Source: a virus
IMG/VR virus record: IMGVR_UViG_3300027734_000320
Location: 1-23,577 of that record
DNA length: 23,577 bases
Direction: 5' to 3' (one strand)
Shown: positions 1,479 to 21,906 of the stretch, piece by piece
Position numbering within the stretch: the stretch's first letter is position 1
Layout: each line of letters starts with the position of its first letter
Position numbers and translations under genes: made by a program
Notes under the pieces: model-generated
Told to the model about the DNA's origin: nothing
The model's database searches: none
The model's input: the letters and a program-made list of their open reading frames with translations, nothing else

Positions 1479-3731
1479 TTACCAGAGCGGCTGCTGCTCT
1501 GTGCTCTCGCTTGCGATCTCCTCGCGGCGCTCATCAATGGCCTCGTCCATCGTCTCAAGCACGTTGAACTTCGCCTGGTTGTTCACGTCGTACTTGGCCT
1601 GCGCCTTGACGACGATGAGCCGCACCACCGCACCCGACATGGTCATGGTCGAGGTGATGTGGTTCGCATCGCATCGCGTCCACCCGCGCTCCTTCCACGT
1701 CGCGAGGATGGCTGCTGCGTCGTAGCCCCAGAAGCGCAGACGATCCTTGCAGATGTCGGGACGTACGCCGATGAACTCCCACATGTCGCCGCCCTGCCAG
1801 CGACCAGACCAGCCCTGCGGGGGAGCATCCTTGCTCACACCAGGAGCCTTCTCAAGACTCGCTTGCATTGATGCAAGGTACGACAGCATGTCGTGCATGG
1901 CCGAGGTTGCACGGTCAGCATTCACCATCGACGCAGCCACGCCACCGTAGGCTTCCGTGATGGGGCTACGGATGAACTGCGGTGCGCCCGTGCGCTGGTA
2001 CAGGAACTCCGCACACGCAAGCACGGCGAGGTACTGCGCGATGCGTCCACCGATGGGATTGAACTTCAGCATGTCGCTGAAGCCATCCACGCTGCGGTCG
2101 TACTGGTCACGCAGGGCAGACACCATCGCAGGGTCGTTCAACATCTGCACGATGCGAGGGCCGAGGTGACCGTGGTACCGGTGCGCGTCGCGACTGGTCA
2201 GGCGTGCAATCTCACCGTGCGATAGCGGCTCGTGCTTGGAGAACGGCGAACCCCACAGCGACAGGATGCGTGCAGCAGCTCCACCCTCCGTAGCGTAGTG
2301 GGTGAGCGGAGCCTCGCCCGTGGACAGCAGCACCGTGCGCCAGTGAGTCTGCTCTTGCAGTCCTTGGATCGTGGCGCGGCCTCGACCCATGCCCTGCGCC
2401 ACAGCGTAGACGATAGAGCTCACGCGGTCTGGCTTCGCTCGCTTGCTGTCATCGAGGATGAGCGGCATGTCGCACACGAACGCAGCAGCGCGCTCGATCC
2501 AGGTCTGCGTCGCGTCCCACGACCACACCAGCCCGTTGTCTCGCTCGCTCGGTGAACCCCACACGCTCGCCGCCAAGCGCAGCGCCGTGGTCTTGCCCTT
2601 GCTCGTCTCTCCACCGAAGTCGAGGCAGAAGTTCGGAGCTTCAGGGAGATGCTTGAGGATGGGCGGGCAGATGGACGCGAGGATGGCTAGCCCGAAGCGC
2701 GGGTGCTGGCGCAGCCGGCTGACCATGCTGCACCATTCGTCCCACGTTCCACGCTGGAAATAACCTTTCGCCATGCTGGACAAGCCAGGCTTATTGATGT
2801 CGAGGTGGATAGGCGCCGCTTCCCACGAACCCGTGTCGAGGTCAGCCATGACGATACCGTCAGGCGTGATGAGGTTACGGCCCCACATGTAGCCGCTCTG
2901 GTTCCAGCCGAGGTGGCCGACCGTCACGGCCTCGTTGATAGCCGCCTCGTTCTGGTGCAGGTAGGCTTCGAACCAGTCGACCAATCCGCGTGCGCTGTTG
3001 CTGCTGACCGGGACGTTGAACGCAGAGAGCTGCGATAGTTCGGTCGCGACGAGCACGCTCTTGCGTCCGCAGACGTGCTGGTGCCAGCGACCCTTGGAAC
3101 GCCAGCGCAGCATGACGTAGGAGCCTTCGCTGTCCACGTCACGCATGATGCCGGTGATGAGGATGGGTGTGCGGCACAGGTTCTCCGACCGCTCGCTTCC
3201 GTCCTCGTCGGTGACGATCTTCCACACGCCGCCGGCATCCACGCGGAAGCCCACGGGGCAGGTCACGTCGTCAGAGATATCGATCTCGTCAACGATGTCG
3301 CCAAGCGATGCGCGGATCTTCTCGGTCAGCGTGGTGATGCGACGCGTGCCGCCCTTGCCGGCTCGGCCATGCGACAGACGGCGAGCCTCTGACCGCACCA
3401 TGGTCAGGAGTTGCGCACTCCACTTGCTCCAGCCTGGCGTCTGCCCAAGCAGGAAGACCTCGCGCATGAGCGGCTCCTGCTCCAAACTCCACTGCGCTCC
3501 GAGCGCAAGCATGAATCGCGGCGTGCAGAGCGATGCCCAATCGACCATGCCTTCTGCCTTGGGCTTGCCGGCAGCGTTGCGACAGAAGGCGACGAAAGAC
3601 TTCATGGCCCAGGCTGCGAGCTTGGCGCGGGTCTTGTCGTCCTTGAGGTCAGACGGCTTGACCTCCGCAGCGTTGAGCAGGTCGGGAAGAGTCAGTCCTC
3701 CGGCGAGGAGACTAGGCAGGTCATGCGACAT
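1479..3731 (-). CDS. DUF927-type replicative helicase/ATPase
   Basis: This 750-aa protein looks like the DUF927 family of phage and mobile-element proteins, which are DnaB/SF3-like ATPases often paired with a primase. The ATPase core is visible: Walker A GGETSKGKTT at residues 373-382, Walker B LILDD at 424-428, and a downstream polar strand LLSTGEAPL near 468-476. The region before it (about 155-370), with VGFRVDAGGVWKI, has the layout of the DUF927 N-terminal part. I chose the ATG at 3731 rather than the longer frame from 3800. An AAGGAA SD lies seven bases upstream of it, and it overlaps the primase gene by only 11 bases. It is the last gene of the minus replication block. Its likely job is to unwind the phage replication fork together with the adjacent primase. 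Confidence 0.8.
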   Translation of the reverse strand: MSHDLPSLLAGGLTLPDLLNAAEVKPSDLKDDKTRAKLAAWAMKSFVAFCRNAAGKPKAEGMVDWASLCTPRFMLALGAQWSLEQEPLMREVFLLGQTPGWSKWSAQLLTMVRSEARRLSHGRAGKGGTRRITTLTEKIRASLGDIVDEIDISDDVTCPVGFRVDAGGVWKIVTDEDGSERSENLCRTPILITGIMRDVDSEGSYVMLRWRSKGRWHQHVCGRKSVLVATELSQLSAFNVPVSSNSARGLVDWFEAYLHQNEAAINEAVTVGHLGWNQSGYMWGRNLITPDGIVMADLDTGSWEAAPIHLDINKPGLSSMAKGYFQRGTWDEWCSMVSRLRQHPRFGLAILASICPPILKHLPEAPNFCLDFGGETSKGKTTALRLAASVWGSPSERDNGLVWSWDATQTWIERAAAFVCDMPLILDDSKRAKPDRVSSIVYAVAQGMGRGRATIQGLQEQTHWRTVLLSTGEAPLTHYATEGGAAARILSLWGSPFSKHEPLSHGEIARLTSRDAHRYHGHLGPRIVQMLNDPAMVSALRDQYDRSVDGFSDMLKFNPIGGRIAQYLAVLACAEFLYQRTGAPQFIRSPITEAYGGVAASMVNADRATSAMHDMLSYLASMQASLEKAPGVSKDAPPQGWSGRWQGGDMWEFIGVRPDICKDRLRFWGYDAAAILATWKERGWTRCDANHITSTMTMSGAVVRLIVVKAQAKYDVNNQAKFNVLETMDEAIDERREEIASESTEQQPLW

Positions 3732-4716
3732 GGTGGTGTTCCTTCGTGGTAGCGAAGAGTGCGAGGTTGATTCGTCGGAGGCTGTATCCCGCGAGGGCAT
3801 CTGCTATCTCGCTGGCGTATCTCTCCCCTACAGCGTCTTGGTCGGTGGCGATGTAGACGGTAGCGTGTCCCGGCACGCGTCCGGAGGCAAGGTGCTTCCA
3901 TGAGCCAGCACCACCACCGATGACTGCGGTAGCGTCATCACTGCGGGCAGCGCATGCAGCAGCGAGGTAGTCCGTCAGTCCCTCAACGATGATGACCTGA
4001 CTCACCTCGTTGGGCTTGCCCTGCATCATCGGTCGAGCACGCCACGGGTCGAGGAAGAGCCAGCCAGCAGCGTAGCCTCGCGGCCAGCGGGTCTTGCCCA
4101 TCACGTTGTCGGTGATGGCGCGAGCATGGCAAGAGCGGAGACTCCCCATACCATCGTACGCCCCGACCATGAGCGGGTAGTTGCGACCCCACGGCCACCA
4201 GTCAGGGTAGACGTCGAGCACGGGCAGCGCACCGCATGGAGCGTCGACAGGGATGCCGCGTCGCTCAAGGTAGGCGGCTACCTCTGCATCGGTAGAGGCA
4301 GGCCGGCAGCAGCGCAGGAGCGCGGCGACCTGGTCAACAGGTGGAGGTGGCGTCTGCTCGATGACGACAGGCGCAAGGTCAGCACGGTTGACCTCGACGT
4401 GCTCGCCATGACCAGCAAGCAGGTTGACGCCCTGAAGCCACGAGCGCACACGCGACCAGTCATCACCTGACTGCGGAGCACGACCGAAGACGGCAGCAGC
4501 TGCAAGCCACAGCCCGCCAGAGTGAACGCCGCAGGCGAGACACTTCACGGATGCGCCATTGTGGTCGAACATCATGGGCAGACGCTTGTCGCTACGCGAG
4601 CGGCGCTGCGCTCCACACGTAGGGCATGGGCCGAGCGCACGGCGTGACACGGTGAGTCCGAGCGCCTGCACCACGGCAGCAGCAGGGATGGCGCGTGCTT
4701 CATCAAGCCACGACAT
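3721..4716 (-). CDS. DNA primase, CHC2-like zinc finger plus Toprim
   Basis: The 331-aa product has a primase layout. The N-terminal zinc-binding motif is CPTC (C31, C34) with CLAC (C59, C62), and the C-terminal Toprim domain has IIVEGLTDYLAA (E245) and YIATDQDAVG (D292, D294). Toprim acidic residues bind the metal ions for RNA primer synthesis. The length suits a phage-type stand-alone primase whose helicase partner is a separate protein, here the next gene. I chose the ATG at 4716 over the adjacent GTG at 4719 because GGAGG sits six bases from the ATG but only three from the GTG. The gene overlaps the helicase start by 11 bases, suggesting coupled expression. Confidence 0.88.
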   Translation of the reverse strand: MSWLDEARAIPAAAVVQALGLTVSRRALGPCPTCGAQRRSRSDKRLPMMFDHNGASVKCLACGVHSGGLWLAAAAVFGRAPQSGDDWSRVRSWLQGVNLLAGHGEHVEVNRADLAPVVIEQTPPPPVDQVAALLRCCRPASTDAEVAAYLERRGIPVDAPCGALPVLDVYPDWWPWGRNYPLMVGAYDGMGSLRSCHARAITDNVMGKTRWPRGYAAGWLFLDPWRARPMMQGKPNEVSQVIIVEGLTDYLAAACAARSDDATAVIGGGAGSWKHLASGRVPGHATVYIATDQDAVGERYASEIADALAGYSLRRINLALFATTKEHHHVA

Positions 4717-4812: not shown

Positions 4813-5307
4813 TCATGGCTGCGACATGCCCCACATAGCAAGGCACGCAGCATCGGCAAGCCCGTCATGCGGAGTACGCCTACCTTGAAGCACGAGGTCA
4901 AGGGAAGGCAGGCGACGCTGCACAAACGCGATGGTGCAGTCCTTCTTCTCTGCTTGTGTGTTCCATGTCTTGCTGCCGAGGATGGCCCTCGTCCACACCG
5001 AAGCGATGGGTTCAAGCACGGGGTAGCCGTGGCACGCACCGATGATGGTGCCCCAGTTCTTGCCGATCTTGAGGATGCTGGTGCGGCCTTCCATAGGGCG
5101 GCACTGCTGCTGCTCGATGACGATGCGTACGGGGCCGGCCTTCGCTGCAAAGTCGATGAAGCCACGGATGGCCTTTGCGTCAATCTGACCTGCGCGGCAG
5201 TAGCCTCCGTTCTTGTCGTCAGCTGCACACGCGAAGATGACGTTGCCGCCATCGGAGATGCCGACGATTGCCCCGCTCATGCCTGGGTCGATTCCGAAGG
5301 TGATCAT
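4813..5307 (-). CDS. RuvC-like Holliday junction resolvase
   Basis: This 164-aa protein has the RNase H-fold arrangement of RuvC-type crossover junction endonucleases. These nick four-way DNA junctions as dimers with two metal ions. The acidic catalytic set is visible: D7 in FGIDPGMSGA, E65 in IVIEQQQ, and D148/D152 in PHDGLADAACLA. The length is close to that of bacterial RuvC. In phages such enzymes resolve recombination or replication intermediates and debranch DNA before packaging, consistent with the primase/helicase neighbours and the ERF/SSB block nearby. I chose the ATG at 5307 because it overlaps the methyltransferase stop (ATGA) and follows GGAGG six bases upstream. Starting further upstream would run well into the methyltransferase gene. 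Confidence 0.87.
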   Translation of the reverse strand: MITFGIDPGMSGAIVGISDGGNVIFACAADDKNGGYCRAGQIDAKAIRGFIDFAAKAGPVRIVIEQQQCRPMEGRTSILKIGKNWGTIIGACHGYPVLEPIASVWTRAILGSKTWNTQAEKKDCTIAFVQRRLPSLDLVLQGRRTPHDGLADAACLAMWGMSQP

Positions 5308-6470
5308 GCTTCCTCCACCGCTTGAATGCGTGCGCCGATCCAGCGCATGCAGTTGACTGCCATACTGTTGCCGAGCGCCTTGTACCGAGGCCCATCGGGA
5401 CACTCGCTGGCCGACTTGCCCTTCCACGGGATGGCCGTCCATCCGTCAGGGAAACCTTGCAGGCGTTCGCACTCGGTCGGCGTGAGGCGACGGACGGCCA
5501 TGGAAGGCTGGAGCACGGCGTTCATGTTCGTTCCGTGCTGCTCGCGGACGACGCCGCATACATCTCCAGTGGTCTTGTGGTTGTAGACGTCGAAGTGAAC
5601 AGCGGGCTGCACCACCGCAGCGTGCACGACCATCTGCATTCTGTTCTTGTCGGGCATGCGCTGGTCATCGCTCGTGCAGGTCAGCGACTCTGCTACGTCT
5701 GCGCCGTTCCAAAAGCGTGCTTCAGGCACAAACAGCGAGGCGCCTCCGAGCGCATGCTGGTCTTCTAGTCCGAGCTTCTCGCCGAAACATGCGGCGAGCG
5801 TGCATGCTACGTCGCTGGGCCACTGACGCTCCGCAGAGCCGCGAGCAACATCGGAGGCAGCTCCTTTCCTCGACGTTCGGCGCGGCGCAGAATCCCCTCG
5901 CACGCCTTCCGGCTCAAAAAGTACCGAGGCAGCACGAGCTGCGTCTCCTCCAGAATGTCCGACAACGAACACACGGCGTCGTCGCTGTGGGACGGCGTGA
6001 GGGTAGCCGTCCACTCTGGCATACTGCGCGTCCAGCACTCGGTAGGCGAACCCATACCCGAGGTCGCCCAACGCCCCGAGGAAGGAGCCAAACGCCCGTC
6101 CGTCGTCTTGTGACAGGACGCCGGGGACGTTTTCCCAGACGATCCACCTTGGGCGAAGTGCTTGCGCCAGTCGGACAAACTCCAGCGTAAGGCCACCGCG
6201 AGGGTCGGCGAGTCCTTTGCGGAGTCCTGCGACGGAGAATGCTTGGCATGGGGTTCCACCGACGAGGACGTCGATTGGAGTAGATCGAACAGGGTGATCT
6301 GGTTCGGAGAGACGAGTGAAGTCTCCGTAGTTTTGGACATGTGGGTATCGCTCCTTGATGACAGCAGAGGGAAAAGGCTCGATCTCGCAGAACCACGCAG
6401 GCGTCCACCCCAAGGTGTGCCATGCGACGGATGCCGCCTCGATGCCTGAACAGACAGAACCGTAGACCAT
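5304..6470 (-). CDS. C5-cytosine DNA methyltransferase
   Basis: The 388-aa protein carries the conserved motifs of m5C methyltransferases in order. They are the S-adenosylmethionine-binding start VYGSVCSGIEAA, catalytic GGTPCQAFS with C75, WENVPG (E113-N114-V115), QRRRRVFVVG at 162-171, the RRLTPTECERLQGFPD motif, and the closing ALGNS. The region between QRRRRVFVVG and the RRLTP motif, about 180 residues, should hold the target-recognition domain, so the recognised site cannot be read from the sequence. No restriction endonuclease lies beside it, so it is an orphan enzyme likely to protect phage DNA from host restriction. The ATG at 6470 follows GGAGG four bases upstream. Longer in-frame starts lack such an SD and intrude on the divergent control region. 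Confidence 0.93.
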   Translation of the reverse strand: MVYGSVCSGIEAASVAWHTLGWTPAWFCEIEPFPSAVIKERYPHVQNYGDFTRLSEPDHPVRSTPIDVLVGGTPCQAFSVAGLRKGLADPRGGLTLEFVRLAQALRPRWIVWENVPGVLSQDDGRAFGSFLGALGDLGYGFAYRVLDAQYARVDGYPHAVPQRRRRVFVVGHSGGDAARAASVLFEPEGVRGDSAPRRTSRKGAASDVARGSAERQWPSDVACTLAACFGEKLGLEDQHALGGASLFVPEARFWNGADVAESLTCTSDDQRMPDKNRMQMVVHAAVVQPAVHFDVYNHKTTGDVCGVVREQHGTNMNAVLQPSMAVRRLTPTECERLQGFPDGWTAIPWKGKSASECPDGPRYKALGNSMAVNCMRWIGARIQAVEEA

Positions 6471-6591
6471 TGAGCCTCCGTCGTCTGATGTAGCAGCGTG
6501 CATCATGGAGCGCAAGATAGAGAAAGCGAAAGAAAGATGTTGCCGCTGCGTGAGCGTGCGAGTAGATGGAGAGTGCCACCAAGGAGAAGGC
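6471..6591. promoter_or_regulatory. Divergent intergenic region with promoter-like elements
   Basis: This 121-base gap separates the minus replication block from the plus recombination block, so it must hold or relay promoters for both unless they are read through from afar. A weak sigma70-like pair facing right is TTGCCG at 6540-6545, 17 bases, then TAGATG at 6563-6568. For the left direction a TATCTT-like -10 lies at 6514-6519 (reverse strand) without a convincing -35. A purine-only tract with few exceptions runs from about 6514 to 6539. No strong dyad is visible. These calls are by eye and tentative. Confidence 0.35.
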
Positions 6592-7287
6592 ATGATCACG
6601 CAGAGCAACGAGATCGGGGCGCTTGCCCTGGCGCTGTCGAAGGCGCAGGGTGTGATGAGGCACGCCATCAAGGACAGCAACAACCCTCACTTCAAGAGCA
6701 AGTACGCCGACCTCACCTCGTGCCTTGAGGCTGTGCGTGAGCCGCTGTCCAAGAACGGGCTGGCTATTGTGCAGCTTCCGTCCCGCAGCACCGAAGGTCT
6801 GGTCGAGCTGACCACAATGCTCATCCATGAGAGCGGCCAGTGGATCGGCAGCACTGCGTCCACCCGCATCGCCAAGGACGATCCTCAAGGCATGGGCAGC
6901 GCCCTGTCTTACCTCCGCAGGTACTGCCTGATGTCCATCACCGGACTCGGCGCGGACGACGACGATGGCGAGCAGGCCATGCACCGCAATCTTCAGATGC
7001 GTGACGACGGTCGCAAGTTCAAGCAGGAGGCCGAGCGCATCGGCAAGCAGGTCACGGGTCAGAATGTCGTCGCTGACGTTCACCACGAGTCGTGGCCGGC
7101 AGCGCGTCAGCTCTTCTGCGCTGTGCTTGGCGACCTTGGTACGGACTACGCCATCGTCGCGAACTGGTGCGAGTCGCTCGGTCGTGCGCGTCCGTCTGCC
7201 ATGGACAACGAGCAGCGCGAGAAGCTCCTCGCCTTCATCAAGAGCGAGAAGGGCAAGGCGTCCCTCTCTGCCTACACCAACCAGTAA
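6592..7287 (+). CDS. ERF-family single-strand DNA annealing protein
   Basis: The 231-aa product matches the ERF superfamily of phage recombinases, which anneal complementary single strands during recombination and genome circularisation. The N-terminal core shows the usual pattern. The helix ALALALSKAQGVMRHAIKDS leads into NPHFKSKYADLTSCLEAVREPLSKNGLAIVQ in consecutive parts. A conserved GMGSALSYLRRYCLMSITGL segment, an acidic GADDDDGEQA and a charged C-terminal part follow. The ATG at 6592 follows AAGGAG five bases upstream, while the longer frame from 6505 would start in the purine tract without an SD. SSB is next, 12 bases downstream, which is the common ERF-SSB phage pairing. Confidence 0.88.
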   Translation: MITQSNEIGALALALSKAQGVMRHAIKDSNNPHFKSKYADLTSCLEAVREPLSKNGLAIVQLPSRSTEGLVELTTMLIHESGQWIGSTASTRIAKDDPQGMGSALSYLRRYCLMSITGLGADDDDGEQAMHRNLQMRDDGRKFKQEAERIGKQVTGQNVVADVHHESWPAARQLFCAVLGDLGTDYAIVANWCESLGRARPSAMDNEQREKLLAFIKSEKGKASLSAYTNQ

Positions 7288-7299
7288 GGAGAAGCAGTC

Positions 7300-7689
7300 A
7301 TGGTCAACAAAGTCATCCTCATCGGAAACGTCGGACAGGACGTCACCACCCGCGACGTCAGCAACGGCATAGTCGCCAACACCAGCCTCGCTACCAGCGA
7401 GAAGCGCAACGGCGAAGAGAAGACGGAGTGGCATCGACTCGTCTTCTTCGGCAAGCTCGCTGACCTGGCGAAGCAGTACCTGACCAAGGGCAGCAAGGTC
7501 TACGTCGAGGGCAAGATCTCGTACCGCAAGTACACCAACAAGGACGGCGTCGAGGTCAACAGCACCGAGATCATCGTTGACCAGATGCGCTTCATGGGCG
7601 GCGGCAAGAGCGACGACAGCCGTCCGTCGAACAGCCGGCCCGCCCCATCCCGCAACGCTCCCGGCCCTGACGAGGAGATCCCGTTCTAA
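7300..7689 (+). CDS. ssb: Single-stranded DNA-binding protein
   Basis: This 129-aa protein is a bacterial-type SSB. It opens with [14 protein letters not shown] and contains [19 protein letters not shown] and [13 protein letters not shown], the hallmarks of the OB fold (roughly residues 1-105). A flexible Ser/Pro-rich linker follows, and the protein ends in the acidic tip DEEIPF, the docking tail for partner proteins in cellular SSBs. It coats single-stranded DNA during replication and recombination and probably works with the ERF protein just upstream. An AAGGAG SD precedes the ATG. Its TAA stop shares one base with the next start. Confidence 0.96.
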
Positions 7690-9499: not shown

Positions 9500-10204
9500 C
9501 TACGCGATCTTCACGCCGCGAACGGTCAACGGCGTTTGGAGGTTCCAGAAGTTGTTGTCTACGAGGATCTGGAACGCGTCCATCCGGTAGACCGTCTTCT
9601 GAACCAGCGGGTTGGCGTTGCTCTTCAGCCAGTCCTCGCGGGCCTGGAGATACTGCTTGATGAACAGCACCTCGTCTCCACCACGGCTCGGGGGCGACGC
9701 TGCGAACCTCTTCCGCATGTTCGCTACCATTCCAGGGCCAGAGTGGATGCATGTGTCGTAGATAACAGCCCACGACAGAGCATGCTTCAGGCCCATGTCA
9801 TTGCACATGTTCGCGGCAGGCGCGAAGTAGTGCTCGTCAAAGACCTCGTCCTGCGCCTCTCGCATCTTCGGGTCAGCACCAGCGATGCGGAGAAGGTTCA
9901 TGAGGCTCTGGAGCCAGTGCGGGTGCGGGCCAGCAGGAGGAACCTTCGTGCTCTCGTTCGTCGCGAGCTGCGGAAGGAACTCCGCGATCTCGTAGGCGTG
10001 CTGCCCACCCTTGGCGATGTACTTCTTCACGACCAAGTCGAGCGAGCCGGCCTTGTCGGTGCATTGGTGCTTGCCGTAGGAGATTCCGGCCCCGTCAGCG
10101 AGCACGGTGCAGGCGCTGTAGGCGCTAGGGCTAGGCACCTTGCCAGTCTCAAAGATGGCGATGATGCAGTCAACGACGTGCTTCTGCGCGGGGGTGATGC
10201 TCAT
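9500..10204 (-). CDS. GH46 chitosanase-like endolysin
   Basis: The 234-aa protein begins with TPAQKHVVDCIIAIFETG, then ADGAGISYGKHQCTDKAGSL. This is the arrangement of glycoside hydrolase family 46 chitosanases, where the first catalytic acid (E19 here) follows a hydrophobic helix and the second (D37) precedes a Gly-Ile-Ser/Thr-Tyr/Phe-Gly strand. Phages use related lysozyme-fold enzymes as peptidoglycan-cleaving endolysins, and its place between two membrane-protein genes supports that role. I see no signal peptide, so export would depend on a holin. I chose the ATG at 10204 (GGAG five bases upstream). It begins two bases after the preceding stop. The same frame is open upstream to 10282, which matters for the frameshift signal described separately. 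Confidence 0.72.
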   Translation of the reverse strand: MSITPAQKHVVDCIIAIFETGKVPSPSAYSACTVLADGAGISYGKHQCTDKAGSLDLVVKKYIAKGGQHAYEIAEFLPQLATNESTKVPPAGPHPHWLQSLMNLLRIAGADPKMREAQDEVFDEHYFAPAANMCNDMGLKHALSWAVIYDTCIHSGPGMVANMRKRFAASPPSRGGDEVLFIKQYLQAREDWLKSNANPLVQKTVYRMDAFQILVDNNFWNLQTPLTVRGVKIA

Positions 10205-10206
10205 AG

Positions 10207-10707
10207 TCACTCCGAGGTAGGAGGTGCAGCGGGAGAAGAGGCCGTCTTCGTCCCAAAAAAATACGCAAATACCAATAAACATGTGTCTTTAATAAATCCG
10301 ACGATGGCCGACCGCTCGCCTTCGCGCAGGAGGAGCACGTCGGGGCCAGCGATGAGCAGGTCGCAGACGTAGATGCCGACGAGGACGGCGATTATGCTCG
10401 TCGCGAAGTAGGTCAACGCTTCGATGACGTTCTTCGCGCTGCCGAAGATGCGGGCGACCTTCACCTGGATGGCGATGATGATGAGAACGCCAGCAACGAT
10501 GGCGCAAATGGTTCCCCACGCAGAATGGTAGAGCGAAGAGAACGGTGCGGTCGGCTCCACGGCTACGGGGGCGGCGACAGAAGCCAGCTCTTGTACATCA
10601 GCCACAAGCGCGTCCACTCCAGCAGGAACAGGAAGCGGAACTTCCTCCACCGGTACTGACGGAGCCGGCGCTGCCTCGATTGGTGTAGGTTCAATGGCGG
10701 GATCCAT
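10207..10707 (-). CDS. Holin-like multi-TM membrane protein
   Basis: The 166-aa protein has a Pro/Ala/Val-rich soluble N-terminus (about 1-55) and three hydrophobic segments. They are GTICAIVAGVLIIIAI (about 63-80), YFATSIIAVLVGIYVCDLLI (about 100-119) and IVGFIKDTCLLVFAYFFG (about 135-152). A short Ser/Pro/Ala tail follows. A holin makes inner-membrane holes that let endolysin reach the wall, and the endolysin gene follows two bases downstream. AAAGGA precedes the ATG. Codons of the third segment are strikingly AT-rich compared with the rest and contain a slippery T run. The long N-terminus is unusual for a holin, so another phage membrane protein remains possible. Confidence 0.68.
   Translation of the reverse strand: MDPAIEPTPIEAAPAPSVPVEEVPLPVPAGVDALVADVQELASVAAPVAVEPTAPFSSLYHSAWGTICAIVAGVLIIIAIQVKVARIFGSAKNVIEALTYFATSIIAVLVGIYVCDLLIAGPDVLLLREGERSAIVGFIKDTCLLVFAYFFGTKTASSPAAPPTSE
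10231..10261 (-). promoter_or_regulatory. Candidate -1 ribosomal frameshift signal (U_UUU_UUU plus stem-loop)
   Basis: On the minus strand the holin-like gene reads GCG TAT TTT TTT GGG at 10266-10252. This places T TTT TTT (10261-10255) exactly in the X_XXY_YYZ phase of a -1 slippery site. A stem follows at once: GGGA (10254-10251) and GAAGA (10249-10245) pair with TCTTC (10239-10235) and TCCC (10234-10231). There is one bulged C and a CGGCC loop. After a -1 slip the frame reads W-D-E-D-G and stays open into the endolysin, giving a predicted 402-aa holin-endolysin fusion. Normal reading ends 15 residues later at 10207. Whether it is used is unknown. Confidence 0.4.
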
Positions 10708-15233: not shown

Positions 15234-16820
15234 ATGGCCCGAACTACCACAGGTGTGCCGCTCGATGCTGCTGCTGTCCGCGCTGCGATGGAGCGCGACA
15301 AGTTCATCAGCATCTGCCGCATCGTCCGTGAAGACGAGAGCATCGGCTCGCTCAACATCACGCCGACCCAGCGACAGGTGCTCGACGCCTGCATCAACCA
15401 TCGCTGGGTGATGATCAAGAAGTATCGTCAGGCGAAGATCACGACGCTGATGATCCTCGACCTGCTCGGCCAGTGCATGTACACACCTGGCGTTCAGGGC
15501 GTCCTCATCGCAGAGAAGTACGACACGGCAGAGACTGCGTGGGGCCGTGCTCGCTACGCCTACGACTACCTGCCGGATGCCATCCGCATCCCGACTCGGT
15601 CAGGTCGTGACCCTGCGAAGCGCGAGATGGAGTTCGTCCACGGTGGACGCATCAAGACCATCACCGCAGCCACGGGTACGCCGGCCATCGGCAACAGCCC
15701 TGACCGTGTGGTCGTGACCGAGTACGACGAGTTCAGCGACCAAGACAACTTCAACGCGCACTTCTTCCCGTCTGTCGCCAAGCGGCAGAACGCACGCGTG
15801 GTGATGGAGTCTACGCCAGGCCGGCAGGGCACGACGTCCCACACCATGTGGCTGAAGGCTCTAGAAGGCTCCAGTCAGTTCCATCCGGTGTTCCTCAAGT
15901 GGTGGCTGGATGACTCCTGCACCGTGATTGACCCGACGTTCGTTCCTGACCAGAGCGAGCTGCGGATCATGGAGGAACTAGAGGGCATCACCTACGCTCA
16001 CCTCGCCTTCCGTCGTCAGCGTCTCGACACGGAGTTCGTCGGTGAGGACTCCAAGTTCCGGCACAAGTACCCGTACGGCCCGTACGACGGATGGACGACG
16101 GAGAGCGGCAACGTGCTTCCGTCTGACTCGCTCCTTCACATGCTTACGGATGCGACCACTACTATCGACAACAACGAGCACTACTACGAGGAGCGCGAGG
16201 AAGGATGCCCGTACGTCCTGACCTGCGACCCTGCCGGCTACGGTAGCGACGGTGACCCTAGCGCCATCACGCTGTGGAACGCGTGGGATCACAGCGAGGT
16301 CATGTCGTGGTCGGGTCGTGAAGACCCAGGTCGCCTCGCTGCTCGCATCCTCCGCATCCAGCAGGCATGGGACTGCGAGGTTGTCGTAGAGTCGAACGCT
16401 CCTGCGTGCGTGCAGGCGCTCGTAGGTATGCGCTGCCCGAAGCTCTACCACACGGGGCCGAGTCATCCCGGTTGGTACATGACCAGCGTCGGCAAGAGCG
16501 CCGCCATCGTCGTCCTCGTAGAGATGCTGCGAGCCGGTGAGATGAAGCTCCACACCAAGGCGACCATCCATCAGCTGCTTCAGTGGGATGGCGAAAGCCG
16601 TAAGCGCGGCAAGGGTGAGCATGGACGCCATCACTTCGACCGAGCCATCACGGTGATGATTGCTGCTGCGGTGTTCCGCAAGCGGGGATACGGCTTGCGG
16701 CCAGCATCCTCCACGCGTAACGTCGTCATGAAGCCGGGGCAGACTGCATCAATCTCTGTAGAAACCCTCGACAAACTCTTCAAGCCGCGTCGCAACAAGA
16801 CCCTAGGGATCCACCCATGA
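15234..16820 (+). CDS. terL: Terminase large subunit (TerL)
   Basis: The 528-aa product is the packaging motor ATPase/nuclease that drives phage DNA into the prohead. The ATPase half shows KKYRQAKITT at about 62-71 as a divergent Walker A, VVVTEYDE at 159-166 as Walker B, and ESTPG at 192-196 as the coupling motif. The nuclease half has the acidic RNase H-like set: D332 in TCDPAGYG, E386 in VVVESN and D469 in HHFDRAIT. The length fits a phage TerL. The Walker A lacks the usual glycines before the lysine. The ATG at 15234 has a weak SD. The portal start overlaps its stop by ATGA. Confidence 0.93.
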   Translation: MARTTTGVPLDAAAVRAAMERDKFISICRIVREDESIGSLNITPTQRQVLDACINHRWVMIKKYRQAKITTLMILDLLGQCMYTPGVQGVLIAEKYDTAETAWGRARYAYDYLPDAIRIPTRSGRDPAKREMEFVHGGRIKTITAATGTPAIGNSPDRVVVTEYDEFSDQDNFNAHFFPSVAKRQNARVVMESTPGRQGTTSHTMWLKALEGSSQFHPVFLKWWLDDSCTVIDPTFVPDQSELRIMEELEGITYAHLAFRRQRLDTEFVGEDSKFRHKYPYGPYDGWTTESGNVLPSDSLLHMLTDATTTIDNNEHYYEEREEGCPYVLTCDPAGYGSDGDPSAITLWNAWDHSEVMSWSGREDPGRLAARILRIQQAWDCEVVVESNAPACVQALVGMRCPKLYHTGPSHPGWYMTSVGKSAAIVVLVEMLRAGEMKLHTKATIHQLLQWDGESRKRGKGEHGRHHFDRAITVMIAAAVFRKRGYGLRPASSTRNVVMKPGQTASISVETLDKLFKPRRNKTLGIHP

Positions 16821-18514
16821 AGCTCTCCGAGTACCGTCCGACAATCGACCGTCATGTACAGTCGTTCAAGAGCACGGAGAAGCTGGCCTTCGACCGGCTG
16901 CTGCGCTTCTATCAGGGCAAGTTCTACACCGACCGTGAGTCTGCTGGCCCGACCGAGAGCGAGCTGCTGGTCACCAGCATCAACCTCACGTTCGCCATCA
17001 CCGAGACTGCGCTCTCTACGCTCGTGCCTCGCAACCCGCAGGTCACTGCGCTGTCGCGTGGGCCGGCGCCTGGTGATGCGCTCAAGGGAATGGAGGGCGT
17101 AGTCAATCTCTCGCTCGACCACAGCGACTACTACAGTGAGCTTGTGCTGGCCGTGCAGGACGCAGTGCTCTACGGTCGCGGCATCCTCAAGACCGTGTGG
17201 GACGAGAAGAACGACCTGCCCTTGGTGCGGGCCTGTGACATGCGGGCTGTGTTCTTCGACCTCACGGCGCGTCGTCCGTCCGACATCCGCTACTGGGTCG
17301 AGGCCACGGTCATCAGCGAGGACGAGTTCAAGTCCCGCATCAAGAACGGGCTGTACAAGCCGTGGGCCAACAGCATCCACGGCGACACCTATCCGAAGTG
17401 GCTCGGCTACGACCTTGGTACGGCTGTCTCTCGTCAGCAGCTCAAGGACTGGCAGAACTGGATCACGGTCTACGAGGTCTACGACATCGAGAGCAACCGT
17501 GTCGTCCACATGCACCTCGACCATGATGAGCCGCTCCTTGAGGACGCGCTCCTCTACTGCCCGTACTCTGTCCTCACGCTGAACAACAACGGCGAGGACT
17601 GCCGTGGCCTCTCGGACATCGCACTCATCAGCGACAATCAGGAGGAGTTGAACCACATCCGCACCTACCTGCTGAACATCGCTCGTCTGTCCATCCCGAA
17701 GACTGGGTACGACAGCACGGCGCTTCAGAGCGAAGATGTTGCGGTGGCGCAGGAGGCTCCTGTCGGCAGCATGGTGGGTATCCGCACCACCAGCGGCAAG
17801 AGCATGGCCGACTCGTTCTACGCGTGGCCGATGCCGCAGCCTCCTGGTGCGCTGTTTGAGATGGCGTCCTCGCTGGAGAAGAGCATCGCCACGGTGTCTG
17901 CGCTCGCTGATGCTCAGCGTGGTCAGGTCACTGGCGCTCGTACCGCGACCGAGTTGGCGCTTGTCGAGGGCCAGCTCCGCAACCGTCTGTCTGCTCGTCA
18001 GCGCAAGATCGACACGGTCACTGTGCAGGTCGCAGAGAAGATGGCCTTCCTCGCCATGAAGTTCATGCGTGAGGAGAAGATCGTAGAGTTCACTGGCTAC
18101 TCCGACGCCGAGCCGATCCACCCGTCCTCGCTTGAGAACGTGCGTGCGAAGTTCAAGGTCGTGCCGTACTCCCCGATGGAGTCGAACCGTGCGGTGCTTC
18201 AGGAGCAGTTCAAGGCTGCGATGCAGTTTCTGCTCAACAACCCGTACGTCGATGCTCTTGAGGTCACCAAGCAGTTCCTTGAGGTCTTCCAGCTTTCGCC
18301 TCGTCTGCTGAAGCCAGAGCAGGCTCCGCAGGGCGCTCCCGGTGTGCCGCCGCAGCCTGCACAGGCTATGGCTGCACAGCCACCTGTTGATCAAGCAGCC
18401 GTGCTTGAGGCTCAAGGCGTTGCTCCTCCCGCAGCGCAGATGCCTCCTCAGCAGCAGGCTGTCGCCAACGAGGCGGCTGCACCGATTAGTGAAGAGGAGA
18501 TCGCTACCACATGA
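16817..18514 (+). CDS. Portal protein
   Basis: The 565-aa protein is a phage portal, the dodecameric ring at one head vertex through which DNA enters and to which the tail attaches. Position directly after TerL, size and the pattern of a helical N-terminus, a central part (DAVLYGRGILKTVWDE, DISYR-like strand-rich wing) and a long helical crown all fit. The end (about 490-565) is Gln/Pro/Ala-rich and low-complexity, as in many portals. The repeated ALADAQRGQVTGARTATELA and LRNRLSARQRKIDTV segments fit the stem/crown helices. It shares ATGA with TerL and with the next gene. Family is inferred from size, motifs and context rather than an alignment. Confidence 0.87.
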   Translation: MKLSEYRPTIDRHVQSFKSTEKLAFDRLLRFYQGKFYTDRESAGPTESELLVTSINLTFAITETALSTLVPRNPQVTALSRGPAPGDALKGMEGVVNLSLDHSDYYSELVLAVQDAVLYGRGILKTVWDEKNDLPLVRACDMRAVFFDLTARRPSDIRYWVEATVISEDEFKSRIKNGLYKPWANSIHGDTYPKWLGYDLGTAVSRQQLKDWQNWITVYEVYDIESNRVVHMHLDHDEPLLEDALLYCPYSVLTLNNNGEDCRGLSDIALISDNQEELNHIRTYLLNIARLSIPKTGYDSTALQSEDVAVAQEAPVGSMVGIRTTSGKSMADSFYAWPMPQPPGALFEMASSLEKSIATVSALADAQRGQVTGARTATELALVEGQLRNRLSARQRKIDTVTVQVAEKMAFLAMKFMREEKIVEFTGYSDAEPIHPSSLENVRAKFKVVPYSPMESNRAVLQEQFKAAMQFLLNNPYVDALEVTKQFLEVFQLSPRLLKPEQAPQGAPGVPPQPAQAMAAQPPVDQAAVLEAQGVAPPAAQMPPQQQAVANEAAAPISEEEIATT

Positions 18515-18936
18515 GTTTCATCACGTTCGACCTGAACTGCGAAGACGGGCACTGGGAGATTGGCGTCCTGTACCGTCGCTCTGAAGGCCCGCCTCCGTGC
18601 CCTGACTGTGGCAAGCCTCGCAAGAACGGGTGGTATCCGCAGGGTGCAAAGGTCGCGTCCACGTCCCAGATGTGGAAGCCGCTCACGCACGACGGCATCA
18701 CCTACGAGTCTCGCGAAGACTGGAACGCCTACAAGGCTGTTGTTGAGCGCAACACCGGTCAGAAGATCGTTGAGGTCAGCAACTCGGATCGTGCCGAGCG
18801 TGCAGACTTCCACAAGCATCGAGCATGGGAAGCGCGCCGTGCCCGTGGTCTTGACTCACAGCAGTGGGCCGAGGTCATCCGTGAGCGCAATAACGGGTAC
18901 GACCCGCTTAGTGGTCGACACTTCAGGAGGCAGTGA
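18511..18936 (+). CDS. Hypothetical protein with N-terminal zinc-ribbon-like motif
   Basis: The 141-aa product opens with FITFDLNCEDGHWEIGVLYR and continues to PPPCPDCGKPRKNG. C10 (and perhaps H14) with C30 and C33 would form an FmdB-like zinc ribbon. The rest is charged and helical (EDWNAYKAVVERNTGQKIVE, then RADFHKHRAWEARRARG) and ends in a basic GRHFRRQ. It lies between portal and the Met-rich gene, so it may be a head-assembly or head-to-tail accessory protein. No catalytic motif is visible. The start overlaps the portal stop (ATGA). Confidence 0.68.
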   Translation: MSFITFDLNCEDGHWEIGVLYRRSEGPPPCPDCGKPRKNGWYPQGAKVASTSQMWKPLTHDGITYESREDWNAYKAVVERNTGQKIVEVSNSDRAERADFHKHRAWEARRARGLDSQQWAEVIRERNNGYDPLSGRHFRRQ

Positions 18937-19376
18937 TGGACGACATGATGAGCAAGGACGACTCCATGATGGCGAACCGCCTTCGTGAGACGCTGATGAA
19001 GATCGTGGACAAGGCCGAGTCCGAGGGCAAGCTTGAGCCGCTCGCCGCCATGATCAAGGAACTCAACCTCACCACGGACGCCAAGGCGCTGTTCATGGCG
19101 AGCCAGCTCGATGACAAGACCAAGGGCAAGTCGCCTGAGGAGCTTGCATCGATGTACAAGTCCGAGCCGGCCATGGTCAAGATCGTCCTCGCGAAGGTCG
19201 AGAAGCCTGGCGCGGAGATGGGCATGGAGGAGGAGTCTACCTCCGAGGAGGCCATGCCTTCTGTCTCGTCCAAGATGGACAAGATGAAGAAGGAGGCCGA
19301 GATGTCTGACATGGCCGAGGATGGCATGGAAGACGACGGCAAGGCTAAGGCGTACCGCATGCGTATGGGCATGTGA
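18936..19376 (+). CDS. Methionine-rich acidic protein
   Basis: I start it at the ATG at 18936, which shares a base with the preceding stop (TGATG) and lies five bases after AGGAGG. A GTG at 18933 is less well spaced. About 21 of 146 residues are methionine, clustered at both ends (DDMMSKDDSMM, AKAYRMRMGM), in an acidic, helix-forming background with a KLEPLAAMIKELNLTTDAKA helix near the middle. No domain is recognised. It could be an internal head, scaffold-assisting or portal-associated protein. The composition is unlike its neighbours, but the gene is well placed in the operon. Confidence 0.65.
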   Translation: MDDMMSKDDSMMANRLRETLMKIVDKAESEGKLEPLAAMIKELNLTTDAKALFMASQLDDKTKGKSPEELASMYKSEPAMVKIVLAKVEKPGAEMGMEEESTSEEAMPSVSSKMDKMKKEAEMSDMAEDGMEDDGKAKAYRMRMGM

Positions 19377-19789
19377 TGGCTTCTTACGGAGACACCATCC
19401 GTACCATGCGGCAAGGTGCAGAGTCTGAAGACAATGCATCTTGTCCGCTTGCGACTGAAGACATCAAGACGAACCTGAAGAACAGGCAGAAGGCAATCGA
19501 CACTGCGGCCTATGGGCCGGCTAACCCTGGTGAACCCAACGAGGATTACTGGGCTGGAAAGGCAAAGCGTATGCGCACCTCTGTTGAAGAGGCGAAGACG
19601 ATGCTTTGCGGTAACTGTGCTGCGTTCAACCAGAAGCCTGCGATTCTAGCGTGCATCAAGGAAGGCATCGGTCGCGACGCGAATGACGTCGTAGAAGCCG
19701 GTGACCTTGGATTCTGTGAGTTCTTCGACTTCAAGTGCGCGTCGTCTCGTACATGCGATGCTTGGGTCGTTGGTGGGCCAGTAAAGTAG
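19376..19789 (+). CDS. Cysteine-rich HiPIP-like protein
   Basis: The 137-aa product has seven cysteines (C23, 78, 81, 93, 114, 121, 127). C78-G-N-C81-A-A-F, then C93, then DLGF-C114-EFF, closely resembles the iron-sulfur ligand pattern of high-potential iron-sulfur proteins (HiPIP): C-x2-C, C, C followed by an aromatic residue. Two further cysteines lie in FKCASSRTCDAW. The HiPIP loop between the last ligands is longer here. Similar short Cys-rich proteins occur next to head genes in some marine phages, with unknown function. I chose the ATG at 19376 (TGATG overlap with the previous stop). A zinc-binding protein is the main alternative. Confidence 0.6.
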   Translation: MASYGDTIRTMRQGAESEDNASCPLATEDIKTNLKNRQKAIDTAAYGPANPGEPNEDYWAGKAKRMRTSVEEAKTMLCGNCAAFNQKPAILACIKEGIGRDANDVVEAGDLGFCEFFDFKCASSRTCDAWVVGGPVK

Positions 19790-19806: not shown

Positions 19807-20679
19807 ATGGAAACGAGCACTACCGAGGTTGTGCAGGATACAGGCGCGGAGGCTGCGTCCTCGCCATCGTCGCCCGTTGGTGGAGACACTTCTCCCTCTG
19901 CTACCGTGAGTAGCGGTGGCGAGGGCGTATCCTCTGAATGGAACGGCGAGCTTGACAGTCTCAAGACCCAACCGTGGTGGAGCACGCTGCCCGAACAGGC
20001 ACGCGCTACCGTCGAGAACGGCTTGAAGTCAAAGTACGGCAACTGGCAGCGCGGCTACCAGTCGAAGTTCGATGAGTTCAAGAAGGGACAGCAGTCTTGG
20101 CAGCAGGAGAAGACTGAACTTCAGAAGTCTCTTGAGTCTGCGAAGGACAACGGAGAGTGGCTCCAGCGCCTCCTTGGTTCTGACGATTCCATGGCTGAAC
20201 TGAACGAGAAGATCTCGTCGCTCACCAAGGCGCTTGAAGAGAAGGATGGTTCGCTGTCCTCTCTTCAGCGCGAGCGTGATGAGTGGCAGAACAAGTTCCT
20301 CTCCTACGAGGAGCAGGTCGTTGCGAAGGAGGCCGAGGCTTTCGACGCAAAGTTCAAGGCCGACTTCCCCGACATCTACGAAGACTACAGCGTGGATGAA
20401 GGTGGCAACGAGAGCGGCGCGTTCGCTCACTTCCTCCGTCTGCTGGAGTCTGGCTTCGATAGCGACACCGCAGCGAAGATGACGCGAGCCATCATGCCGC
20501 AGAAGCCGCAGCCTCTTGGCCCTCGTAAGGTCGAGCCGCCTCCGAGTGTGCGAGCCAGCAAGGCGCCTGGTGATGGGCCGAACCCGACCAGCACACGCAC
20601 GTCCAAGGAGTTCAACTCCTACGACGACGCCATCCGTGCGCTGCGTCAGCAGGCCATGGGTGAGCCTGACGACGAGTGA
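19807..20679 (+). CDS. Scaffold-like protein, 290 aa
   Basis: The protein begins with a long low-complexity Ser/Thr/Gly/Glu-rich region (about 1-45). A WWSTLPEQARATVENGLKSK helix follows, then a long coiled-coil-like stretch (about 95-175: FDEFKKGQQSWQQEKTELQK and SLTKALEEKDGSLSSLQRER). It ends in a Pro-rich region and a charged tail (AIRALRQQAMGEPDDE). A helical coiled-coil protein just before the major capsid gene is the usual place and form of a scaffold, which guides capsid assembly and then leaves. The ATG at 19807 follows AGGAG five bases upstream; the longer reading from 19735 would overlap the previous gene. The family is inferred from form and place. Confidence 0.72.
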   Translation: METSTTEVVQDTGAEAASSPSSPVGGDTSPSATVSSGGEGVSSEWNGELDSLKTQPWWSTLPEQARATVENGLKSKYGNWQRGYQSKFDEFKKGQQSWQQEKTELQKSLESAKDNGEWLQRLLGSDDSMAELNEKISSLTKALEEKDGSLSSLQRERDEWQNKFLSYEEQVVAKEAEAFDAKFKADFPDIYEDYSVDEGGNESGAFAHFLRLLESGFDSDTAAKMTRAIMPQKPQPLGPRKVEPPPSVRASKAPGDGPNPTSTRTSKEFNSYDDAIRALRQQAMGEPDDE

Positions 20680-20832: not shown

Positions 20833-21906
20833 ATGTCGGTTTCCGTCGAACTTCTCAATACTACGCTGGCCGACCTCAAGGGGCCGATGGTCAGCGCGTT
20901 CTACCAGAACGTCCCCACCTTCCGTGCCCTTGAGAAGAAGGGCCGCATCACCGCTGACGGCGGTACTCAGATCGAGCGTTCGATCATGTCCGGTTCGCCC
21001 GCTCGCGGCACCGGCATCTTCAACGGCGACGAGACGCTGGACATGACTCGGTACAAGAAGAGCCAGAAGTACCAGGTCGAGTTCCACCGCGTGGTGCTGC
21101 CGATCAACATCCCGAAGAAGGAGCTGCTCCAGAACAAGGGGCGTCTCGGCGCGATCAAGCTCATCGACACCTACCCCAAGGTGACGATGGACGGCTTCAC
21201 GGTCGACTACGAGAAGTACCTGCTCACGGGTGCGTCGTCTGGCATCGCCATCGACAGCGCGGAGCTTGCTGGCTTCACGACCTTCAACGGTCAGTTCACG
21301 GCTGGCATCGGCACTGGCGTGACGAACGGCCTGCTCGACTTCGCGGCTCCCGCGAACCAGACGCAGACTGTCCAGAACGTCGCCAAGAGCCAGGCGAACT
21401 ACCACTTCAACCAGGCGCAGCAGATCACGTCCTTCGCGACGGACGGCATCAGCAAGATCCGCAAGCTGTACCGTCAGTGCGCGCAGTACGCTGGCAAGCC
21501 GAACGGTGGCCCGGACATCATCGTGATGGACGACGACACGTTCGGTAACTACCAGAATGCAAAGCTCGACCTCGTTCGTCTCACCGCTCTGCCGGAGAAC
21601 ACGGACAAGTCGTCCAACCTCATTCAGGACGTGATCGGTGTCGGCGGCGTCTACGCCTCCAACCTGATCGACCTGACCACGGACTTCTCTGCTCCGGGCG
21701 GCAGCGAGTTCGACCCGCGTACCGGTGTTGTCTACATGATCAACACCGACTTCCTTGAGCTGATCCACGTCCAGAAGATGACGATCTCCGACTTCACCGA
21801 CCAGATCGCTCAGCAGGACGCGGTTACCGCGAAGGTCGAGCTGCACCATCAGATGGTGCTCACCAAGTTCCCCGCCCACGGCTGCATTGCCGGCGGCGCG
21901 GCTTAA
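20833..21906 (+). CDS. Major capsid protein
   Basis: The 357-aa product lies between scaffold and decoration-like genes, as major capsid proteins do. The N-terminus (VSVELLNTTLADLKGPMVSA) and the segment YKKSQKYQVEFHRVVLPINI look like the N-arm and the extended loop strands. DIIVMDDDTFGNYQNAKLDL and GVVYMINTDFLELIHVQKM fit the spine/axial regions of HK97-fold capsid proteins, and the end HQMVLTKFPAHGCIAGGAA is typical. There is no linked protease gene in view, so assembly is likely protease-independent or uses an enzyme outside the window. The SD (AGGAG) can be hidden in the leader hairpin. HK97 fold is inferred from pattern, not structure. Confidence 0.85.
   Translation: MSVSVELLNTTLADLKGPMVSAFYQNVPTFRALEKKGRITADGGTQIERSIMSGSPARGTGIFNGDETLDMTRYKKSQKYQVEFHRVVLPINIPKKELLQNKGRLGAIKLIDTYPKVTMDGFTVDYEKYLLTGASSGIAIDSAELAGFTTFNGQFTAGIGTGVTNGLLDFAAPANQTQTVQNVAKSQANYHFNQAQQITSFATDGISKIRKLYRQCAQYAGKPNGGPDIIVMDDDTFGNYQNAKLDLVRLTALPENTDKSSNLIQDVIGVGGVYASNLIDLTTDFSAPGGSEFDPRTGVVYMINTDFLELIHVQKMTISDFTDQIAQQDAVTAKVELHHQMVLTKFPAHGCIAGGAA

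Follow-up and report, generated by a model that had tools for sequence, protein, structure and literature searches.

Does a protein resembling the HiPIP iron–sulfur proteins have a place in the head module of a phage? The question is raised by one ORF in IMG/VR virus record IMGVR_UViG_3300027734_000320, whose positions 1 to 23,577 are analyzed here as a single stretch of 23,577 nucleotides (the window). The original prediction, made from the sequence itself, described the product as a HiPIP-like cysteine protein encoded among head genes, and named a zinc site as the alternative.

The gene, its neighbors, and its viral relatives

The ORF starts with an ATG at position 19376, ends with a TAG at 19787–19789, and encodes a product of 137 amino acids. 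Its start codon overlaps the TGA (19374–19376) of the gene upstream, and the order of genes on the plus strand is terminase large subunit, P22-like portal, small CxxC protein, acidic protein, HiPIP-like gene, probable scaffold, and major capsid protein (Table 1). The protein contains seven cysteines (C23, C78, C81, C93, C114, C121, and C127), with CGNCAAF at residues 78–84 and GDLGFCEFF at residues 110–118. Elsewhere, the window encodes a glycosyl hydrolase of family 46 (chitosanase; 9500–10282, minus strand; PF01374, E = 1.6e-21), a C5 cytosine methylase (5304–6671, minus strand), a single-strand binding protein (7300–7689, plus strand), and a DUF927 protein (1479–3800, minus strand). A viral chitosanase from soil is reportedly the topic of PMC9485262.

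Table 1. Features of the head module and of the HiPIP-like gene, in window coordinates
Feature	Coordinates	Strand	Basis
Terminase large subunit	15234..16820	+	phrog_2, E 6.5e-17
P22-like portal protein	16817..18514	+	PF16510, E 1.3e-12; phrog_156
Small protein with a single CxxC, between portal and HiPIP-like gene	18511..18936	+	No family match
Acidic Met/Lys-rich protein, stop overlapping the start of the HiPIP-like gene	18936..19376	+	No family match
Cysteine protein of predicted HiPIP fold, 137 aa	19376..19789 (stop included)	+	ORF, family, predicted fold
C23 codon, clade-only Cys, possible partner of C93	19442..19444	+	48/92 rows, same rows as C93
C78-G79-N80-C81 codons, CxNC pair, proposed ligands 1 and 2	19607..19618	+	C, N, C in 92/92 rows; hhalign onto HiPIP CxNC
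C93 codon, clade-only Cys	19652..19654	+	48/92 rows
C114 codon (G-aromatic-C), proposed ligand 3	19715..19717	+	92/92 rows; aligned with third HiPIP Cys
C121 codon, extra near-invariant Cys at HiPIP aliphatic position	19736..19738	+	91/92 rows; 236/237 ORFs
C127 codon (RxC-x2-W), proposed ligand 4	19754..19756	+	92/92 rows; aligned with fourth HiPIP Cys
Probable scaffolding protein (coiled, charged)	19807..20679	+	Weak: phrog_1793 head scaffolding, E 0.096; sits before capsid gene
Major capsid protein	20833..21906	+	phrog_9953, E 1.3e-13

The protein belongs to a large and almost exclusively viral family. A scan of IMG/VR with the window protein returned 44 relatives among 68 candidate stretches, and two profile scans gave at least 571 and at least 488 candidate relatives, each from 600 candidates and in sets that may overlap; the best 80 relatives from each of these two scans were kept. 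A third clade, around the Roseobacter phage CRP-13, comprised 32 relatives among 35 IMG/VR candidates. Eight of the 50,697 GenBank phage records matched the window protein, seven of them under the product name "high potential iron-sulfur protein", and three further queries, taken from the second clade (two members) and from the CRP-13 clade (one member), recovered the same records or fewer. The plasmid search yielded no relatives. The searches did not support the idea that this is a bacterial gene family: bacterial genome contigs contained no relatives when the window protein was the query and one when the alignment of a distant clade was used, on a 16.8 kb contig of an Alphaproteobacteria MAG. 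The window protein matched no Pfam (including the HiPIP family, PF01355), NCBIfam, or PHROG entry, and PDB sequence searches with this protein or with family profiles gave no significant match. Among 92 members, weak PHROG matches were to phrog_4020 (seven members) and phrog_17061 (four members), with a best E of 0.0022, and PF23601 (DUF7140) matched 14 members (best E 0.0026). In BFVD, family members occurred under labels such as XkdF, portal, prohead protease, and Dps, as given there.

Conserved cysteines and candidate ligands

Conservation was assessed over 92 non-redundant rows, that is, 95 representatives minus four (L046, L048, L050, and L051) plus the window protein. The window's own copy (L045) was counted among the 239 loci collected and was left out of the 237 ORFs used for motif counts. 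Four cysteines (C78, C81, C114, and C127), together with N80, G47, and G112, were identical in all 92 rows, and C121 was present in 91 rows, with alanine in the remaining one (L240), and in 236 of the 237 ORFs. The cysteine motif is therefore beyond chance. At 237 of the 239 loci, the window's own included, the arrangement was C-x-N-C, 19–40 residues, G-x-C, exactly six residues, C, exactly five residues, and C-x2-aromatic or His; the two exceptions were L158, which is truncated at a contig end, and L240. The latter (L240:5986-6354) is a natural variant in which C121 is replaced by alanine and the other four cysteines are kept, and its sibling L204 retains C121. C23 and C93 were both present in 48 of the 92 rows and both missing from the other 44, and because they are always co-present or co-absent, the alignment suggests that they form a pair confined to one clade, possibly linked by a bond.

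CGNCAAF, a further cysteine, and GDLGFCEFF are all present as originally described, and three more cysteines do lie outside them (C23, C121, and C127), but the further cysteine, C93, is conserved in only 48 of the 92 rows. Since it is missing from 44 rows, C93 was dropped as a ligand, and the set C78/C81/C93/C114 that the signature had implied was rejected. Conservation and profile alignment point instead to C78, C81, C114, and C127, in a HiPIP-like arrangement, as the most likely cluster ligands, and this set is also favored because L240 lost only C121, the predicted non-ligand.

The fifth near-invariant cysteine, which is no HiPIP feature, could mean a different metal site. The main rival to a [4Fe-4S] cluster is a structural zinc domain, in which the conserved cysteines hold zinc in a head-assembly adaptor that merely resembles the HiPIP fold. 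We regard this as unlikely. Phages often encode small zinc-binding proteins, and five near-invariant cysteines rather than four, along with the weak sequence link to PF01355, would suit such a domain. Two of the 92 members also match Znf_XAF1_N (E 0.07) and one a zinc ribbon (E 0.039), matches that are as weak as those to the HiPIP family. On the other side stand the invariant asparagine of the CxNC pair and the C-x12-C-x2-W register, which agree with HiPIPs, and the fold searches described below, in which no zinc protein rose above noise with either model.

Relationship to HiPIPs in sequence and predicted fold

PF01355 matched seven of the 92 members when E values up to 1 were admitted, the best E being 0.025, which is not significant, and unrelated Pfam models matched family members as weakly or better; taken on their own, the PF01355 matches would prove nothing. 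Four weak PF01355 matches from bacterial genomes were checked for phage likeness; three were ordinary short HiPIPs, and the fourth (L279) had no four-cysteine HiPIP motif in the frame examined. A first hhalign comparison with six HiPIPs gave a probability of 23% over 14 columns, and comparison with a larger HiPIP set, taken mainly from the genomes of one phylum plus plasmids and picked with the G[WY]C motif, gave 65%, with C78, C81, C114, and C127 falling on the four HiPIP cysteines. The score on match columns (28.7) was reached by none of 150 column shuffles (maximum 23.7) and by none of 150 shuffles in which the cysteine columns were fixed, although one of these came close (maximum 28.1).

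The PROSITE HiPIP pattern, which we take to be C-x(6,9)-[LIVM]-x(3)-G-[YW]-C-x(2)-[FYW], matched all 35 reference HiPIPs, themselves picked by the G[WY]C motif, and none of the 237 phage ORFs. The likeness to the HiPIP signature noted from the window protein held in part: this pattern fails throughout the family, but the four cysteines follow the HiPIP order with a HiPIP-like spacing between the third and fourth. That spacing is 12 residues in all 237 phage ORFs, and in HiPIPs it is 12 (4 of 35) or 13 (31 of 35). Asparagine is the third residue of CxxC in all 237 phage ORFs and in 34 of the 35 HiPIPs, and the position three residues after the fourth cysteine is tryptophan in 235 of the phage ORFs and tryptophan, tyrosine, or phenylalanine in all 35 HiPIPs. 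The gap between the second and third cysteines is longer, at 21–42 residues in the phage ORFs versus 8–16 in HiPIPs. In the PROSITE pattern given above, C121 would occupy the aliphatic position. When read by eye, the N-terminus of the window protein (MASYGDTIRTMRQGAESED) showed no twin arginine and no hydrophobic stretch. HiPIPs are exported via the Tat pathway, and the reference HiPIPs have SRRSFM-type (twin-arginine) starts.

The window protein was modeled with AlphaFold2, without templates, from a 92-row alignment (pLDDT 87.3). A second template-free AlphaFold model (pLDDT 86.6; 54 rows) was obtained for L128, a member of the CRP-13-type clade, which was used in place of L049; these two proteins are identical to each other and 28% identical to the window protein. 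The two alignments have many rows in common, so the models are not fully independent. Foldseek returned 35 PDB matches for the window model, of which ranks 1–14 were all HiPIP chains (probability 0.10–0.87), led by 1hlq (E 0.27, probability 0.87, target TM 0.63), and the remaining 21 had probabilities of 0.06 or less. For the L128 model, 45 matches were returned; ranks 1–14 were HiPIPs or 2y8n_B, a glycyl radical enzyme subunit (probability 0.66–1.00, best E 0.012), and the probability then fell to 0.08 or less. VIA-align 2 listed 14 entries for the window model, comprising 13 HiPIPs at Z 4.0–5.1 and 2y8n_B at 2.9, and 18 for the L128 model, comprising 14 HiPIPs at Z 4.9–6.7 followed only by four chains of glycyl radical enzyme subunits. 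Neither model had a Foldseek match at E 0.001 or below, and the VIA Z values were middling. Despite these weak E values, one and the same fold heads both lists of matches to the predicted structures, with a clear gap to noise. Known iron–sulfur tail-tip proteins were absent from the fold-search results, which excludes nothing.

The 14 best PDB matches of both models were HiPIPs or a HiPIP-like glycyl radical enzyme subunit, so the comparison with HiPIP folds for which the original prediction had called came out in its favor, and the idea of a HiPIP fold in the phage protein is supported at the level of predicted structure. On these models, the protein is best described as a cytoplasmic variant of the HiPIP fold that stands outside PF01355, because the Pfam match and the PROSITE pattern both fail.

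Association with the phage head, proposed role, and known systems

The phage HiPIP-like family is tied to head assembly. The head-module setting seen in the window recurs among its relatives: genes for terminase, portal, protease, scaffold, or capsid lay within 5 kb of the gene or were fused to it at 203 of the 239 loci, as judged with seed proteins from a few loci. Fusions to portal were found at 23 loci and fusions to protease at 10. With the seeds used, 36 loci showed no head gene, and because many loci are short, these misses are uninformative. Fusion-size ORFs (at least 280 amino acids) accounted for 53 of 236, and 51 of the 53 came from the C93-bearing clade. Profile scans of selected ORFs identified as partners the lambda-type portal (PF05136), another portal (PF04860, in L093), prohead protease S78 (PF04586), XkdF protease (PF14550), and ADP-ribosyltransferase (PF03496); in scans of four other fusions (L088, L099, L095, and L122), no known partner was found. 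Elsewhere, the gene occupies the interval from terminase to portal, follows the portal, or lies upstream of terminase. The last position, outside the portal–capsid interval, is found in many podovirus-like relatives, and in CRP-13 the gene lies upstream of terminase and next but one to the endolysin gene.

Two features of the fusions were observed in passing. In fusions to portal, XkdF, and S78 protease (L003, L004, L041, and L224), phrog_2859, a domain of unknown function, stands ahead of the HiPIP-like one, as if the two were travelling together, and the phrog_2859 motif occurs in 15 of the 53 fusion-size ORFs. In L001 and L063, the HiPIP-like domain and an ADP-ribosyltransferase domain (PF03496) share one ORF, and this type of fusion is possibly an injected phage effector.

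The head association bears on another reading, in which the protein would be a genuine redox carrier or an auxiliary metabolic protein, shuttling electrons within the infected cell, and its place near head genes would be accidental. The HiPIP fold itself and the GenBank product label would fit that reading, but the phage protein lacks a signal peptide, whereas HiPIPs are exported, and the repeated portal and protease fusions, together with the recurrent head-gene neighborhood, favor a head role. We consider a carrier function very unlikely.

The reading that we consider rather probable is a phage-specific form of the HiPIP fold, located in the cytoplasm and holding one [4Fe-4S] cluster, that serves as a cluster-stabilized docking domain in the prohead. 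The gene, its family, the conserved residues, the predicted fold, the fusions, and the neighboring genes were observed here; the bound cluster, its structural role, and the placement of the domain inside the prohead are the parts of this explanation that we infer. C78, C81, C114, and C127 would hold the cluster, which would be loaded by the iron–sulfur machinery of the host and would lock a compact domain of about 100 amino acids rather than carry electrons. A structural role is proposed by analogy, because the same has been proposed for the HiPIP-like subunits of glycyl radical enzymes. The docking module would be free in phages like that of the window, and in others it would be fused to the C-terminus of the portal, to the prohead protease, or to an ADP-ribosyltransferase protein. 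Its fusion to several unrelated head proteins would be best accounted for if they all operate at one site, the prohead interior.

A more active role is conceivable, in which the cluster is lost or oxidized and thereby sets off a stage of prohead maturation or of DNA ejection, with C121 contributing an additional thiol. C121 occupies a column that presumably corresponds to a position touching the cluster in HiPIPs, and the domain is repeatedly fused to maturation proteases and portals. The cluster of the tail-tip hub is also reported (PMC10276861) to be essential for tail assembly and activity. Nevertheless, C121 is lost in the natural variant L240, and we judge such a redox or oxygen switch very unlikely. 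Somewhat less unlikely, although still doubtful, is a broader proposal: tailed phages would have brought a HiPIP-fold domain with a [4Fe-4S] cluster and an additional thiol into the head interior more than once, placing it on portal, maturation protease, or injected effectors, where the cluster would be a latch that responds to redox state and acts in assembly or in release at infection. If that reading were true, the domain would represent a class of virion iron–sulfur site separate from the tail-tip cluster.

Returning to the docking domain, if its cluster is real, many environmental phages would have a portal, protease, or scaffold module that bears an iron–sulfur domain, and head assembly would be linked to the iron–sulfur supply and oxygen state of the host. 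The domain would also provide a second phage iron–sulfur site beside the known tail-tip cluster, with a bearing on the iron carried by phage particles. The gene is carried by Roseobacter phage CRP-13 and Actinomycetia phage DSL-LC01, both with a named host, and these ideas are thus directly testable.

Part of this picture was already on record. The "high potential iron-sulfur protein" entries of the Manatee Spring phage genomes and of phage DSL-LC01 belong to the same family, but the GenBank records examined give no ligand set, fold test, or function. The Manatee Spring study used Cenote-Taker 2 (PMC8388828), and the labels are probably automatic annotation. Our search of the open-access literature found no paper on a phage HiPIP-like protein and none on DSL-LC01, and a term search of the text of the CRP-13 paper (PMC8528129) found no mention of gp68, iron, or mass spectrometry. 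The name was already in GenBank, but the open-access literature searched contained nothing on the set of ligands, the extra cysteine, the comparison of folds, or the fusions to portal and protease.

Among characterized proteins, HiPIPs (PF01355; 1hip, 1cku, and 1hlq) share with the phage protein the predicted fold, the CxNC pair, the gap of 12–13 residues between the third and fourth cysteines, and the aromatic residue three positions after the fourth. The phage protein differs in its extra near-invariant C121, in having R-T-C in place of G-W-C, in its longer gap between the second and third cysteines, in lacking a Tat signal, in falling under the Pfam cut-off, and in being encoded beside phage head genes. 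The HiPIP-like subunits of glycyl radical enzymes (HPAD gamma, 2y8n_B; BSS, 4pkf_B and 9pzj_B; MASS, 9o8u_B), which were recovered by the fold search, are likewise cytoplasmic and have a CX2CXnCXnC arrangement, but their partner is an enzyme, whereas the setting of the phage protein is the head. The window proteins scanned included no glycyl radical enzyme, the neighbors being head genes, and family profiles did not match these subunits among PDB sequences. In the subunits, the [4Fe-4S] cluster lies far from the active site, with proposed roles in solubility or conformation, and loss of the cluster leaves BSS beta liable to proteolysis, as described in PMC12358834 and PMC12590467. The iron–sulfur domain of the lambda gpL-type tail tip or hub (RcGTA, roseophage R4C) has a four-cysteine cluster that is needed for tail assembly, according to PMC10276861 and PMC7296036. 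It provides a precedent for such a cluster in a phage particle, but it is located at the tail tip, whereas the phage HiPIP-like protein is encoded in the head module.
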